The translations under genes were made by a program, and so were the position numbers. The notes under the pieces are model-generated. The model ran no database searches. It was not told the DNA's origin and saw only the letters and a program-made list of their open reading frames with translations. A stretch of DNA of 56,776 nt. Source: Duncaniella sp. (lineage in GTDB: Bacteria; Bacteroidota; Bacteroidia; Bacteroidales; Muribaculaceae). Location of the stretch: positions 1 to 56,776 of the forward strand of contig JAIDSW010000076.1 of assembly GCA_029061025.1 (NCBI GenBank), given 5' to 3'. Positions 5,033 to 55,128 of this stretch are shown one piece after another. Numbering within the stretch: position 1 is the first letter of the stretch; the number at the start of each line of letters is the position of its first letter.

Positions 5033-5048
5033 TGTTTCACGTGGAACA
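5033..5048. promoter_or_regulatory. parS-like chromosome partition site
   Basis: The 16 bases TGTTTCACGTGGAACA match the bacterial parS consensus TGTTTCACGTGAAACA at 15 of 16 positions, and the core TTCACGTG is intact. In many bacteria ParB loads onto the chromosome at such sites, which cluster near the replication origin. The site sits in the gap between mnmG and apt. That it binds ParB here is inferred from the sequence match. Confidence 0.8.
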
Positions 5049-5064
5049 ATAGTATTTTCTATCT

Positions 5065-6945
5065 TTATCTTCCCATCAGGAGAAGGAGTATATTAATATC
5101 GGCGGGTGAAATACCGGGTATACGTGAAGCCTGACCTACGGTTTCGGGGTCGATACGCTGCAATTTTTGGCGCGCCTCGGTGGATAGTGAATTGATCGTC
5201 GAGTAATCAAGTTTGCCGCGTATCTTCACTCCTTCAAGCCGGCGGAGCTTGTCGGCGATGAGTTGCTCACGCTTTATATAACCGTCATATTTCATGAGCA
5301 CTTCGGCTGCTTCGATTATCTCTTCGCGTCGCTCGGCTTCAATATTCTCTTCGATAAACGTGGCTAATTCGGGCAAACCATCAGCAAGTGTCGAAAGGTT
5401 AAGCGACGGCTGGAGCACAAGACTAATCAGTTTCACACCTTGCTTCACAGGTTGCAATCCGAGCTTCTCAAGATAGGGATTTATAACCGATGCTTTCACT
5501 GAGTAATCGTGACAAAACGTTATAAGAGCATCGCGCTGACGCTTTTTGCTTTGCATAAGCCGATAGCGCCTTTCATCAACAATTCCCACTTCGTAACCAC
5601 GCGGCGTAAGACGCATGTCAGCATCATCCTGACGAAGCAGTATCCTGTACTCGGCGCGAGAAGTAAACATGCGGTAAGGCTCGTCCACTCCTTTCGTAAC
5701 AAGGTCGTCAATAAGAACACCTATATAAGATTCATCGCGGGCGAGCAAGAATCTTTCGTCGCCCCTGGTAGAAAGCGCAGCATTTACGCCGGCAACCAGA
5801 CCCTGACCGGCAGCTTCTTCGTAGCCGGTAGTGCCGTTGATCTGGCCTGCGAAAAATAAGCCCGAAATAAGTTTCGTTTCCAGAGAATGATACAACTGCG
5901 TCGGATCGAAGAAGTCATATTCTATAGCGTAACCCGGACGGAAAAGCTGTACATCGGCAAGTGCCGGGATTGTTGCAAGCGCTCGAAACTGCACGTCGAC
6001 GGGGAGCGAACTCGAGAATCCGTTGAGGTAATATTCCGTAGTCGTTTCGCCTTCGGGTTCGAGGAAAAGCTGATGCTCATTCTTGTCGGCAAACGTTACT
6101 ATCTTCGTTTCGATACTCGGACAATAGCGCGGACCGATACTCTGAATCTGCCCGTTGTAAAGCGGCGAATCAGGAAGAGCCGCGCGCAGTATCTCGTGGG
6201 TTTCGGGATTGGTGTATACGGTGTGGCAAGGTCGCTGTCGGAGCACACGCTTCGATTCAGGGAGATAAGAAAACTTGTGGAAATCATTATCTCCTTCCTG
6301 AAGATTGGTTAATTCCCATTTAACGGAGCGTCCGTCGATACGCACGGGTGTGCCGGTTTTCATGCGATCGGCGCGAAAACCGAGTTGGCGAAGTTGCTCG
6401 GTAATACCGGTTGATGCCGGTTCGGCAACTCGTCCGCCGGGGAGCTTAACCCGACCGGTGTGCATAAGGCCGTTAAGGAATGTTCCGTTAGTAAGCACAA
6501 CCGCCTTGGCACGGAATTCCATACCCAGGGCCGTGCATACTCCTGCCACTTGACCGTCTTCAATAATAAGGCTCGTCACCGAATCCTGCCACATCCATAG
6601 ATTAGGAGTGTTTTCGAGTATCGATCTCCATTTTAAAGAAAAAGCCATGCGGTCGCTTTGCGCGCGGGGGCTCCACATAGCCGGCCCTTTCGAGCGGTTA
6701 AGCATTCGGTATTGTATGGCAGTCAGGTCAGTAACAATACCCATCATTCCGCCGAGCGCATCTATCTCCCTTACAATCTGTCCTTTAGCAATTCCACCGA
6801 CGGCAGGATTGCAACTCATCTGGGCGATTTTATTCATATCGATAGTAATGAGAAGCGTTTCGCAACCCATACGCGCTGATGCCGAGGCAGCCTCACAACC
6901 GGCATGCCCCGCGCCCACAACTATGACATCATAACTGTATTTCAC
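5065..6945 (-). CDS. mnmG: tRNA uridine-5-carboxymethylaminomethyl modification enzyme MnmG (GidA)
   Basis: MnmG binds FAD and, with MnmE, builds the carboxymethylaminomethyl group on U34 of certain tRNAs. The 626-residue length is typical. The FAD-binding Rossmann motif VVGAGHAGCEAA is at residues 9-20. The family signatures SCNPAVGGIAKG, GLFFAGQINGTTGYEEAAGQG and the C-terminal helical region ending RIPGISPADINILLL are all present. The start overlaps the ybeY stop by 4 bp. mnmG is often close to the chromosome origin in bacteria, which fits the adjacent parS-like site. Confidence 0.97.
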   Translation of the reverse strand: MKYSYDVIVVGAGHAGCEAASASARMGCETLLITIDMNKIAQMSCNPAVGGIAKGQIVREIDALGGMMGIVTDLTAIQYRMLNRSKGPAMWSPRAQSDRMAFSLKWRSILENTPNLWMWQDSVTSLIIEDGQVAGVCTALGMEFRAKAVVLTNGTFLNGLMHTGRVKLPGGRVAEPASTGITEQLRQLGFRADRMKTGTPVRIDGRSVKWELTNLQEGDNDFHKFSYLPESKRVLRQRPCHTVYTNPETHEILRAALPDSPLYNGQIQSIGPRYCPSIETKIVTFADKNEHQLFLEPEGETTTEYYLNGFSSSLPVDVQFRALATIPALADVQLFRPGYAIEYDFFDPTQLYHSLETKLISGLFFAGQINGTTGYEEAAGQGLVAGVNAALSTRGDERFLLARDESYIGVLIDDLVTKGVDEPYRMFTSRAEYRILLRQDDADMRLTPRGYEVGIVDERRYRLMQSKKRQRDALITFCHDYSVKASVINPYLEKLGLQPVKQGVKLISLVLQPSLNLSTLADGLPELATFIEENIEAERREEIIEAAEVLMKYDGYIKREQLIADKLRRLEGVKIRGKLDYSTINSLSTEARQKLQRIDPETVGQASRIPGISPADINILLLLMGR

Positions 6946-51005: not shown

Positions 51006-51944
51006 TCATGAAAGTGAAAGCATCCGCTCGATGGGGAGACGGGCGCGGTCGATGATGGCCTCGTCGACATGAATCTGCGGCTCAAGGTCGCGCAGGCAGT
51101 CGCACAGTTTCTCGAGGGTATTGAGTTTCATGTAGGAGCACTCGTTGCATGCGCAGGTGCTGTCGTCGGCCGGAGCGGGAATGAAAGTCTTTTCGGGACA
51201 TTTCTTCTGCATCTCATGCAGTATGCCGCTCTCTGTAGCCACTATAAATTCGGTGGCATCGCTTTCGGTGGCATATTTCAGCAACACTGCTGTAGAGCCT
51301 ATCACATCGGCCAGCATTCTCACTTGCGGGCGACACTCGGGATGAACCAGCACGGGCGCATCAGGATGCTCAGCCTTGAGCTTCATGATCTTCTCCACCG
51401 AGAATTTTTCATGCACATGGCAGGCGCCGTCCCACAACACCATCTGCCGTCCGGTGACAGAGTTGATGTAATTGCCTAAATTTCGGTCGGGACCAAAGAT
51501 AATCTTCTCATCTTTCGGCATCGACTCCACCACCTTCATGGCATTGCCCGAAGTGACCACTATGTCGGTCAGAGCCTTCACGGCAGCCGAAGTGTTGACA
51601 TAACTTATTACGGTGTGACCGGGATGTTCCTTGATGAAAGCCTCGAAGTCGGCGGCATCGCAGCTATCGGCCAGCGAGCAGCCCGCTTCGAGATCCGGCA
51701 CGAGCACCACCTTGTCGGGACACAGTATCTTCACCGTCTCGCCCATGAAATGCACGCCGCACATCACTATCACTTTCGCATCGAGCTTCGACGCGATCTG
51801 AGCCAGCGCAAGCGAGTCGCCAATGAAATCGGCTATGTCCTGAATCTCACCTTTGGCATAATAGTGAGCCAGGATCACAGCATCTCTTTCCTGCTTCAGT
51901 CTCTGAATCTCCCGGAGGAGTCCTGCCCGGTTTTCAACTTCCAT
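51006..51944 (-). CDS. nadA: Quinolinate synthase
   Basis: NadA joins iminoaspartate and dihydroxyacetone phosphate to form quinolinate for NAD synthesis, using a [4Fe-4S] cluster. The 312-residue protein has the early AHYYAKGEIQDIADFIGDSLA, VHFMGETVKIL and DLEAGCSLADSCD, then VHPECRPQVRMLADVIGST and the C-terminal CACNECSYMKLNTLEKL. The three-domain layout and cluster cysteines are kept. nadB and nadC are not in the window. The promoter region upstream is the AT-rich, DnaA-box-rich stretch. Confidence 0.95.
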   Translation of the reverse strand: MEVENRAGLLREIQRLKQERDAVILAHYYAKGEIQDIADFIGDSLALAQIASKLDAKVIVMCGVHFMGETVKILCPDKVVLVPDLEAGCSLADSCDAADFEAFIKEHPGHTVISYVNTSAAVKALTDIVVTSGNAMKVVESMPKDEKIIFGPDRNLGNYINSVTGRQMVLWDGACHVHEKFSVEKIMKLKAEHPDAPVLVHPECRPQVRMLADVIGSTAVLLKYATESDATEFIVATESGILHEMQKKCPEKTFIPAPADDSTCACNECSYMKLNTLEKLCDCLRDLEPQIHVDEAIIDRARLPIERMLSLS

Positions 51945-52640
51945 TTTTTATTAATCGAAAAAAATTTTTTAAAATAAAGAATTTTAACAGGAGCAGTAAT
52001 GCGTGTAAATTCACGTGATAACTTTCAGCCATTTTCCTTGCATTTCAGGGTTATTGATACGGGGTTAACATTCTGCCGCCCTTTTTCAACACTACCCGCT
52101 ACTGAAAGATAGACGTTTACGCGCTTTATCTACACTATGTTTATAAGGTGCAAAGTTAATAAATTCTTGTGTAAAATCATCATGCAAAATGTCAAAAAGG
52201 GTACTGAAAAGTGTGTGTATAACTATGTGACATAATATTTGCACCGTGGTGTCATCATCGTTATAAGAATTTGAATCTCAATTTTGCAAGAGTAACTTGT
52301 TGAATATTCTCAACAATTATCTACACGGTTGCTGACACTCTTTTCAACACACGTTTTCATCATCATTAATTAGTATTCAACTGATTGTGCTTACAAAAGT
52401 GGAAAATTTACATGAAATTTACACAGCTATTGACACTTTATATACATCATAAAACTCTCTTGTTCAGTCATACTGTTATGTTTCTTTACATAGTGTGGAT
52501 AACAATGCCTTACACTATCTACACACCATCTTTTGTGAATTTACACCCATGTTGACAATTTACTTAATCAACACGCTTATATACACTTTATCGACATGAT
52601 AAATCATTGATTAATAGATGGTAATAGCAGTTATTTACAT
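51945..52640. other. Candidate replication origin: AT-rich region dense in DnaA boxes
   Basis: Nearly 700 bp without a gene. Words close to the DnaA box TTATCCACA are frequent. A perfect one lies on the minus strand at 52494-52502 and TTATACACA on the minus strand at 52214-52222. Near matches occur at 52126, 52317, 52438, 52577, 52588 and 52631 (plus strand starts). Runs of TTTACA and TTGACA words and AT-rich tracts lie between them. A TTCACGTGA core lies near 52010. This is what an oriC looks like, though box matches alone do not prove it. No dnaA gene is near. Confidence 0.55.
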
Positions 52641-52653
52641 GGTGTAATTTGTA

Positions 52654-52675
52654 CGGACGCGAATTTTCGCGTCCG
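52654..52675. repeat. GGACGCG palindrome right of the candidate origin
   Basis: A 10-bp perfect inverted repeat (52654-52663 with 52666-52675) around two bases. It shares the GGACGCG core with the hairpin between apt and uvrC. Confidence 0.55.
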
Positions 52676-52763
52676 CATCCACAACATGAATTGAACCGAT
52701 AGCCTAATGATGACAAAAAGATCACCGCTAACGCTAATATCGTCATACTCATTTTGCTCCGCC

Positions 52764-52788
52764 GGGCGCTTCACAGGAGCGCCCCTAC
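52764..52788 (-). repeat. REP-like palindrome, GTAG-tagged
   Basis: On the minus strand, GTAG is followed by GGGCGCTCC, a short spacer and AGCGCCC. Related copies lie at 52828, 54990, 55104 and 56604. The GTAG tag plus palindrome is the signature of elements mobilised by RAYT transposases. Confidence 0.6.
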
Positions 52789-52827
52789 AATATTGCCATT
52801 CAGAGATATGGTTGTTATGTGTTATCT

Positions 52828-52852
52828 GTAAGAGCGCTCCAGGGAGCGCCCG
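52828..52852 (+). repeat. REP-like palindrome, diverged copy
   Basis: GTAAGAGCGCTCCAGGGAGC runs into GCCCGG, a variant with GTAA in place of GTAG. It lies 40 bp from the inverted copy at 52764, so the two form a BIME-like pair. Confidence 0.5.
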
Positions 52853-52931
52853 GCCGGGCAAAACAGTAATTATAAAATAACCGCTTGCCACAATGATAAT
52901 GACAAGCGGATTATAATATGATATATAGTGA

Positions 52932-53228
52932 TTAAAGCGCGCGGTCGATAAGTTCGCCCAGCTGGTTGGCAGTCTTTTTACCACTTTCGCGCATCAGTTC
53001 CTCGCCTTCCTTGAAAAGAATGTAGCAGGGATAAGCCGTGATGCGGAAGTGTTCGCTTACGCGGTTGTTGAAATGGTTGGGGAAATAGATTACATGAGCC
53101 TTTCCCTCATACTTGGCGCTCACCTCTTCCACTATAGGTTTCACCTCTGAGGCTTCTTCCTTGCCCTCATGCACAAATGCCACTAGAGTAGGCATCTTTT
53201 CTTTAATGATTTCTTCAAGATTTTTCAT
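52932..53228 (-). CDS. Thioredoxin-fold protein lacking the CxxC motif
   Basis: A 98-residue protein with a thioredoxin-like order: VAFVHEGKEEASEVKPIVEE at the place of the active site, HVIYFPN, then TAYPCYILFKEGEEL with the cis-Pro loop. The redox CxxC is absent; the only Cys is next to the cis-Pro. It may bind other proteins instead of reducing them. It lies between the two halves of the origin-like repeat, and no clear promoter is seen. Confidence 0.85.
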   Translation of the reverse strand: MKNLEEIIKEKMPTLVAFVHEGKEEASEVKPIVEEVSAKYEGKAHVIYFPNHFNNRVSEHFRITAYPCYILFKEGEELMRESGKKTANQLGELIDRAL

Positions 53229-53725
53229 ATCTGATCTGTATTTTTAATTTCTGTAATTATAACGCCCAAGCCACAATAACGGTTTACACCCGCGCAACTG
53301 AATACAATTTTAAAAAATATAAATTTACATGATTATATACACTTTTTCTACATCATAATACATTGATTATTAATAGATTAAATATAGTTATTTACACATT
53401 GTAGAAAAAGTTGTGATTACTTTTTTACATGATAGATAAGGATGCCATATTGAGATTTGGTAGTGCATAAAACCCCTGAAAAGTCGCTCAGCAGCTTTAT
53501 ATAAATAATTGAATAGCAGAATATACAAGTGATGAGATATGATCCGACAGCAAAAGGTGTCTGCAATGAGATTCTTGTTTATGCTTTTTTATATTGCTGT
53601 TTAAATGGCGAACAAGGAGGAATAAACTCGGTAGGGTGTTGTTCGTTAAATTGACTGTATTACACCTAAATAACCCTCATACCTCTATTAACCAAATGAC
53701 TTTCCGAAAGTAAAGGCACATTTAA
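53229..53725. other. Gene-poor AT-rich region with a second origin-like repeat
   Basis: Nearly 500 bp without a convincing gene. The part at about 53330-53410 repeats the right end of the candidate origin (about 52575-52645): TATATACACTTT, a C-A-T-CATAA segment, CATTGATTA, ATAGAT and TATTTACA follow in the same order. DnaA-box-like TTATATACA (53333) and TTATTTACA (53388) occur. A 40-codon frame from about 53532 is Cys-rich but has no supporting context. Confidence 0.6.
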
Positions 53726-54799
53726 TTATATATTGCTCTCTATTTCTTCTACTGTTGGTAATGTTCCTTTGAAATCAACAGGAAAGAGTTTTGCCAATTC
53801 GTATTCAGAAATACCGATTGGTTCATTTATGGCTTCTAAAGCGTATTTAGCCAACACATTATCTTTTGTCTTGCATATCAGTATGCCGATTGTTGGATTA
53901 TCTGTTTCTGCACGTAATTCGTGATTGACAGCGGCAACGTAAGTGCCAAGTTGTCCGAGACTGCTTGCTTCAAATTTCCGCGTTTTTATTTCAACTACTA
54001 CATAACAATGTAGTTTGGTGTTGTAGAACAACATATCCAAGAATTGCTCTGTACTTCCAACCTTAATCCTGAATTCGCGTCCCATATAAGCAAAGCCGCT
54101 ACCCAATTCAAGCAGAAATTTTGCAATATTATTCTCTAATGCATCTTTCAACTCTTTCTCTCTATAATTCTCTGCTATACTGATAAAATCAAATGTATAT
54201 GGGTCTTTTGTTATCTCCTGTGCTAAGTCTCCGTGAGGCTGAGGTAATGCACTGTGAAAATTTGTAATTGCTCGTCCTTGACGTTCATACAAGTCTGTAT
54301 CTACAAAATTTTCAAGCATCCCACGAGACCAATTGTTCGCTATAGTTTTACGGACAAAGAAAATAGCCTTGTCGATATTATCTTGATACTTATCCATGAT
54401 GACCTTGTGATGTCCCCAGGGTATCATAAAGATTTCTTCCCCAACTTGGGGAACAATTTGAGATTCTTGTTGCGTAATTTCTTCCTCAACTTGGGGAAGA
54501 AATTTATCTGCCTTTGGATAAAGCAGATAGAATCGCTGCATATATCGAAGATTTGTAGGAGAAAAACTTTTTACTCCGGGCAGTAAAACCTTTAAGTCTT
54601 GACTGACATTCTCAAAGAATTTATCTCCCCACTTATATTGCGATTTCTTTTCTGTTATTTCTCGACCTAAATTCCAATAAAATTTTAGCATTTCAGAATT
54701 AACAAATGTGGCAGCTTTTATTTGGCTACGACGGAATTTTTCACTTATAATAGTGATCCATTCTTTATAGGTCTTATCTGTGTTAAGAAGTGTACTCAT
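53726..54799 (-). CDS. YhcG/DUF1016 family PD-(D/E)XK nuclease
   Basis: A 357-residue protein with an N-terminal DUF1016 helical domain (YKEWITIISEKFRRSQIKAA, LKFYWNLGREITEK, SPTNLRYMQRFYLLYP) and the C-terminal YhcG nuclease (GREFRIKVGSTEQFLDMLFYN, then VVVEIKTRKF with the D...ExK residues). I use the ATG at 54799 (MSTLLNTD); the frame is open to 54820. A low-complexity linker (EEEITQQESQIVPQVGEEI) is coded by CCCAACTTGGGG palindromes. The gene is markedly AT-rich and stands alone. Related proteins occur in defence islands, but no partner is seen here. Confidence 0.9.
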   Translation of the reverse strand: MSTLLNTDKTYKEWITIISEKFRRSQIKAATFVNSEMLKFYWNLGREITEKKSQYKWGDKFFENVSQDLKVLLPGVKSFSPTNLRYMQRFYLLYPKADKFLPQVEEEITQQESQIVPQVGEEIFMIPWGHHKVIMDKYQDNIDKAIFFVRKTIANNWSRGMLENFVDTDLYERQGRAITNFHSALPQPHGDLAQEITKDPYTFDFISIAENYREKELKDALENNIAKFLLELGSGFAYMGREFRIKVGSTEQFLDMLFYNTKLHCYVVVEIKTRKFEASSLGQLGTYVAAVNHELRAETDNPTIGILICKTKDNVLAKYALEAINEPIGISEYELAKLFPVDFKGTLPTVEEIESNI

Positions 54800-54961
54800 G
54801 ACAGCAAAGTTACGCAACATTCCTGAATTTCTCTGCCTTTTCCAACGCTTTTAATGTGCGGTAACTTCGTGTGTGATGTTTACAGACCGGAAAATATTTT
54901 ACGGTTACGGCTCATTATAATTTTTTCTGCACGCTAAATGAAATTTATACATGCTCCCTAT

Positions 54962-55083
54962 CTTATTTAATTAATTGAATTGCAATCCTGTAGGGGCGCT
55001 CCATGGAGCGCCCGGCCGGGCAAAAGGTAATTTCAGTCATTGTGCTCAAATAGCTCCGCCAGACAAAAGGTAATTTCAATATT
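54962..55083 (+). repeat. Direct repeat, left copy (about 120 bp)
   Basis: This segment and that at 56576-56700 share the same order: CTTATTTAATTAATTGAATTGCA, a REP-like palindrome, CCGGCCGGGCAAAAGGTAAT, CAGTCATTGTG/CAGCCATTGTG, CAAATAGCTCC and GGTAATTTC. They are in the same orientation, about 1.6 kb apart, and flank the coiled-coil gene. Confidence 0.75.
54990..55013 (+). repeat. REP-like palindrome, GTAG-tagged (in left repeat)
   Basis: GTAG followed by a perfect 20-base palindrome GGGCGCTCCATGGAGCGCCC. This is the best-formed copy of the family in the window. Confidence 0.65.
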
Positions 55084-55103
55084 CATGCTCATTTTGCTCC
55101 GCC

Positions 55104-55128
55104 GGGCGCTCCTGTGAAGCGCCCCTAC
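55104..55128 (-). repeat. REP-like palindrome, GTAG-tagged
   Basis: On the minus strand, GTAG, GGGCGCTTCACAGGAGCGCCC, then GGCGGAGCAAAATGAG. It is inverted relative to the copy at 54990, about 90 bp away, so the two form a pair. Confidence 0.6.

Follow-up and report, generated by a model that had tools for sequence, protein, structure and literature searches.

Near one end of a 56,776-nt stretch of Duncaniella sp. DNA (the window), AT-rich DNA crowded with words resembling DnaA boxes recurs in part beyond a small gene. This raises the question of whether chromosome replication starts here and, if so, whether it does so from one origin or from two cooperating halves; the original prediction was of a candidate oriC, possibly bipartite. 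Computational evidence throughout indicates that this region, which lies upstream of the quinolinate synthase gene nadA, is very probably the chromosomal oriC of an uncultured gut bacterium of the Muribaculaceae. Among named relatives a Duncaniella sp. assembly comes closest, with a NadA that is 94% identical.

Chromosomal position and neighbouring genes

The window genome is a draft of 363 contigs, of which the window is one, and GC skew was followed on chromosomes of relatives sampled in 20-kb stretches. A skew minimum had been named beforehand as the check on the candidate, and in the relatives this check is passed, with the minimum falling at the orthologous site in G092, G416, G130 and G291. 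G092, a member of the same family assembled as one closed 3.3 Mb contig and sampled in 40 stretches of 20 kb, has a mean skew of -0.054 left of the nadA region and +0.068 right of it (P 1e-7); a blind scan puts its origin at 1.38 Mb, and the DnaA-box modules described below lie at 1.377 and 1.380 Mb. In G416, a closed chromosome of the same genus (3.6 Mb contig), the blind optimum is at 1.22 Mb and the module at 1.227 Mb (P 2e-4); the blind-scan origin is about 10 kb or less from the site in both closed chromosomes. The 2.3-Mb contig of the congener G130 changes from minus to plus skew at the kilobase upstream of nadA (P 1.5e-4), and a large contig of G291, from another family of the order, changes sign at nadA (P 5e-3, twelve stretches). 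Skew is weak in G408 (P 0.06), where the blind optimum falls 0.6 Mb away from the module. Within the window itself skew does not turn up over the 3-4 kb that lie right of the origin, where the signal is blurred because this stretch includes a low-GC nuclease gene. That gene (53726-54820, minus strand) adjoins the origin, encodes a YhcG/DUF1016 PD-(D/E)XK nuclease and was perhaps acquired.

The two landmarks outside the origin are:

51006-51944, minus strand, nadA (quinolinate synthase), left flank of the origin (PF02445, E 1e-125)
5033-5048, no strand assigned, perfect parS (TGTTTCACGTGGAACA), the only one in the assembly

Of 149 family genomes 140 have nadA, which is the origin-flanking gene in most of the family. 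Reading of 21 loci showed a box array upstream of it in 20, in a few cases some way off. The family member G007 (L093) has no DnaA-box cluster upstream of nadA, and here either the origin or the nadA gene has moved. Literature searches on nadA together with oriC in Bacteroidetes gave no relevant result. The parS-like site that had been reported 47 kb away proved to be a perfect parS, and exactly one perfect parS is found in each of G000, G092, G130 and G057, 11-47 kb from the site. The single parS of the window directly adjoins gidA/mnmG (5065-6945). Adjacency to dnaA, which is usual for an oriC but not required, is absent, as had been stated: the draft has dnaA on a different contig, and in relatives hundreds of kb separate it from the origin. 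For Bacteroidetes such a distance between oriC and dnaA is the norm (PMC4755523).

Core architecture and predicted unwinding element

Alignment of the region upstream of nadA from 23 loci yields one conserved array. Moving away from nadA it consists of an A/T tract, DnaA-trios, a short GC-rich spacer, box 0 on the minus strand and box B1 on the plus strand, with 78-79 bp from box 0 to B1, 43 bp from B1 to B2 (plus) and 12 bp from B2 to B3 (minus). B3 is followed by GCAAAGTTAATAA and, at 52 bp, by R4 (minus); a right-hand group of at most three plus-strand boxes, 10-12 bp apart, lies about 180-200 bp from B3. In the window these elements are:

51945-51984, no strand assigned, A/T-rich tract, predicted duplex unwinding element (family alignment)
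51985-51999, plus strand, five DnaA-trios (TAA CAG GAG CAG TAA) in three-base phase
52000-52003, GC-containing spacer after the trios
52004-52012, minus strand, box 0 (GAATTTACA), degenerate in the window species, 79 bp before B1
52082-52165, plus strand, module copy 1, the ancestral core (profile R1, E 1.9e-15)
52083-52091, plus strand, B1, within module copy 1
52126-52134, plus strand, B2, within module copy 1
52138-52146, minus strand, B3, within module copy 1
52150-52162, conserved GCAAAGTTAATAA after B3, within module copy 1
52190-52198, minus strand, box R4 (TTTTTGACA), at the 52-bp distance from B3 that relatives also show
52317-52325, plus strand, box R5 (TTATCTACA), conserved right-hand group
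52341-52349, plus strand, box R7 (TTTTCAACA), conserved right-hand group

The trio phase of 50 unique related sequences has an A fraction of 0.73, compared with 0.20 for whichever phase is lowest. Their trio runs average 4.38, compared with 2.63 (sd 0.20) in shuffles; box 0 is placed 78-79 bp before B1 in 48 of the 50. Judged by its A/T tract and trio phase, an AT-rich unwinding element stands beside a DnaA box, and the site of unwinding is quite probably the one next to nadA. The same order of elements makes up the basal unwinding system of B. subtilis, i.e. DnaA box, GC-rich spacer, DnaA-trios and A/T tract (PMC6669920, PMC8287927), which has been searched for in more than 2000 species (PMC8287927). 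The window origin differs from that of B. subtilis in lying far from dnaA, in its box TTAT[C/T]AACA and in its degenerate box 0, and its opening is predicted.

The Bacteroidetes -7 promoter element is TAnnTTTG. The minus strand of GCAAAGTTAATAA (52150-52162) contains TAACTTTG, which matches this element and is directed at nadA, and the origin therefore probably contains the promoter of nadA.

DnaA box and recognition helix

The sixth position of the DnaA box, which is C in E. coli, is A in 117 of 150 core boxes and C in only 4. Therefore, the family box is TTAT[C/T]AACA and not TTATNCACA; TTATCTACA is common in the window species. The residues of the DnaA recognition helix are held to contact the DnaA box, and this helix reads DHTTV in E. 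coli and B. subtilis. It reads SHATV or THATV in three relatives (L119, L120 and L121), and in the window genome itself dnaA is truncated at the end of a contig. A literature search on DnaA recognition residues found no paper. The altered helix together with the shifted box suggests a changed specificity, in which case the DnaA of this lineage would prefer TTATCAACA over TTATCCACA. A broader and rather doubtful proposal is that initiator and origin changed together, and that copies of a 90-bp module multiplied and crossed genes to give working multi-part origins in several genera.

Module copies

An exact three-box pattern matched in just 4 of 247 genomes of the order. This pattern was too strict, and therefore a profile, R1, was built, which spans 90 positions of the B1-B3 module and draws on 19 relatives, with the window genome and its sister left out. 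R1 matches in 190 of 197 sampled Muribaculaceae genomes, and most best matches adjoin nadA; the remaining 7 of the 197 gave no match. In the window R1 identifies four module copies, all on the plus strand, of which copy 1 is listed above. The others, with the associated features, are:

52434-52503, plus strand, module copy 2 (R1 E 1.5e-4)
52494-52502, minus strand, perfect box TTATCCACA ending module copy 2
52577-52585, extra box 11 bp before module copy 3
52584-52645, plus strand, module copy 3 (R1 E 1e-7), repeat D1
52932-53228, minus strand, gene with a thioredoxin fold, separating module copies 3 and 4 (PF00085, PF13848)
53333-53341, extra box 11 bp before the first box of module copy 4
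53347-53409, plus strand, module copy 4 (R1 E 1.9e-3), repeat of copy 3, also in G142

The repeat of about 75 bp in the same order, on which the idea of two halves was based, is real: it comprises direct repeats of 51 nt (80% identity) and 18 nt (83% identity), and when 52560-52660 is aligned locally with 53316-53420 the score is 66, the highest of 300 shuffles being 36. The small thioredoxin-fold gene that had been placed between the halves is likewise there, and is the one gene in the gap. The repeated piece is also related to 52082-52165 and 52434-52503, which makes four copies where two had been seen. Copy 1 is at the family position; copies 2 and 3 are common to a few congeners, with similar three-copy arrays at like distances in G142, G406, G411 and G073; copy 4 is found only in the window and the sister species G142. 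Because there are four copies and the fourth was found in the two sister species only, the two halves are better described as one ancestral core and three derived copies. Among the loci searched, the thioredoxin gene too occurs elsewhere only in G142, where it is 98% identical. Reading of the sequence before copies 2-4 found no box 0 and trio element at the matching place, and they are therefore likely to be accessory DnaA-binding arrays.

Several modules at one locus are also seen further afield. G055 (L144) has two full modules, one on each side of nadA, G037 (L145) has two that are 10.6 kb apart and inverted, and G092 (L047/L068) has two that are 3.1 kb apart; the loci inspected were partly picked for having several matches and give no frequency.

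The window also contains GC-rich palindromic pieces (52651-52698, 52750-52791, 52826-52871 and 54976-55128), which recur between genes across the draft genome with about 33 matches and may be REP-like elements. It has no tRNA or RNA family.

Alternative explanations

The simplest alternative is that box-like words arose by chance in AT-rich intergenic DNA beside an unrelated repeat, and the loose one-mismatch motif does give 56 matches over the whole window against 38 expected. Their clustering tells a different story. At least eight such words, two of them perfect, had been reported, and 52126-52645 contains 10 words within one mismatch of TTATNCACA (mean 2.06, maximum 6 in 500 dinucleotide shuffles), with perfect TTATNCACA words at 52214-52222 and 52494-52502, both on the minus strand. 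The same interval contains 9 TTATNNACA words against a mean of 0.52 and a maximum of 4, and none of the 500 shuffles reaches 9; counted per kb, the 53rd kb of the window has 9 of these words and every other kb 0-3. Box order and spacing are moreover kept across the family, and the conserved spacing refutes chance, the probability of which is negligible. A DnaA-titration or recycling site of the datA or DARS kind, or a DnaA-regulated nadA promoter, would also carry DnaA boxes; copies 2-4 alone could serve for titration, and a promoter-like element lies within the region. In E. coli, datA and DARS are DnaA-box arrays that lack an unwinding element and lie away from oriC. Copies 2-4 resemble them as box arrays with no unwinding element but differ in adjoining oriC, and the region as a whole is at the skew switch in four genomes, has trios and an A/T tract, and has one parS nearby, so that a role other than oriC is highly improbable. 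Conservation and skew together rule out chance and titration alone.

A closer rival is a functional bipartite origin, in which DnaA bound at 52082-52645 would pair with DnaA bound at 53347-53409 and loop out the thioredoxin gene, both clusters being needed. In the bipartite origins of H. pylori and B. subtilis, dnaA lies between the clusters. The window resembles these precedents (PMC8235120 for H. pylori) in that DnaA-box clusters, copies 1-3 and copy 4, flank a gene (52932-53228), but that gene has a thioredoxin fold, and a recent copy of a core module makes up the second cluster. This much of the two-halves claim stands, and the clusters share an orientation that is kept in G142; the separated full modules of G055, G092 and G037 are also in its favour, as are five TTWTNNACA words in 53229-53480, a count reached by none of 500 shuffles. 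The claim falters on the halves themselves. Most relatives read have a single cluster, the split layout is shared only with G142, copy 4 is the weakest R1 match, and copies 2-4 have no preceding trio element; the second half thus looks like an accessory array. A bipartite origin is accordingly considered unlikely, and a single family-wide core beside nadA, with three derived sub-module copies, is preferred.

Proposed mechanism

The location, conservation, architecture and copy number of these elements are established here, as is the skew switch in relatives. The course of initiation at the single core is a proposal, in which DnaA binding, the opening of the DNA and the function of the additional copies are predictions. 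DnaA would bind the spaced core boxes from box 0 to R7, and a filament of ATP-DnaA would extend from box 0 onto the DnaA-trios (51985-51999) and open the A/T tract (51945-51984) next to the start of nadA. The helicase would load at the opened tract, and two forks would depart in opposite directions. Copies 2-4, as duplicates of the core's DnaA-binding module, may recruit or titrate DnaA and thereby tune initiation, with copy 4 acting from beyond the thioredoxin gene.

Relation to other Bacteroidales origins

Overall, this is a known kind of origin in a variant arrangement: it is linked to nadA, its box is shifted and its modules are repeated. The literature consulted deals with Bacteroidetes origins in broad outline. 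The predicted oriC of Prevotella intermedia and other Bacteroidetes (PMC4755523; DoriC) similarly consists of a box cluster at the skew transition with dnaA distant, and for some relatives the location may already be in DoriC. The predictions in PMC4755523 used E. coli boxes with one mismatch, whereas here the lineage's own box, its module, trio element and nadA anchor are defined and the module copies are described. Outside the family but within the order, the sequence preceding nadA is often rich in AT and contains several boxes, some of which keep the spacing described above, and several Bacteroides species have a minus- and a plus-strand box about 200 bp apart upstream of nadA. Some genera have no boxes there, e.g. 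Tannerella sp. (L270). Boxes upstream of nadA in other families imply an origin beside nadA that probably predates the Muribaculaceae, the skew basis outside the family being G291 only.

Bacteroidales rank among the most common bacteria of the gut. Looking beside dnaA does not reveal where their replication starts, nor does the E. coli DnaA box do so reliably. The conserved 90-bp module next to nadA can be searched for and locates the origin even in fragmented drafts, which aids the estimation of growth rates from read depth and the construction of replicating vectors in Muribaculaceae. In addition, related species with one to four module copies form a natural series in which the role of extra DnaA arrays is testable.
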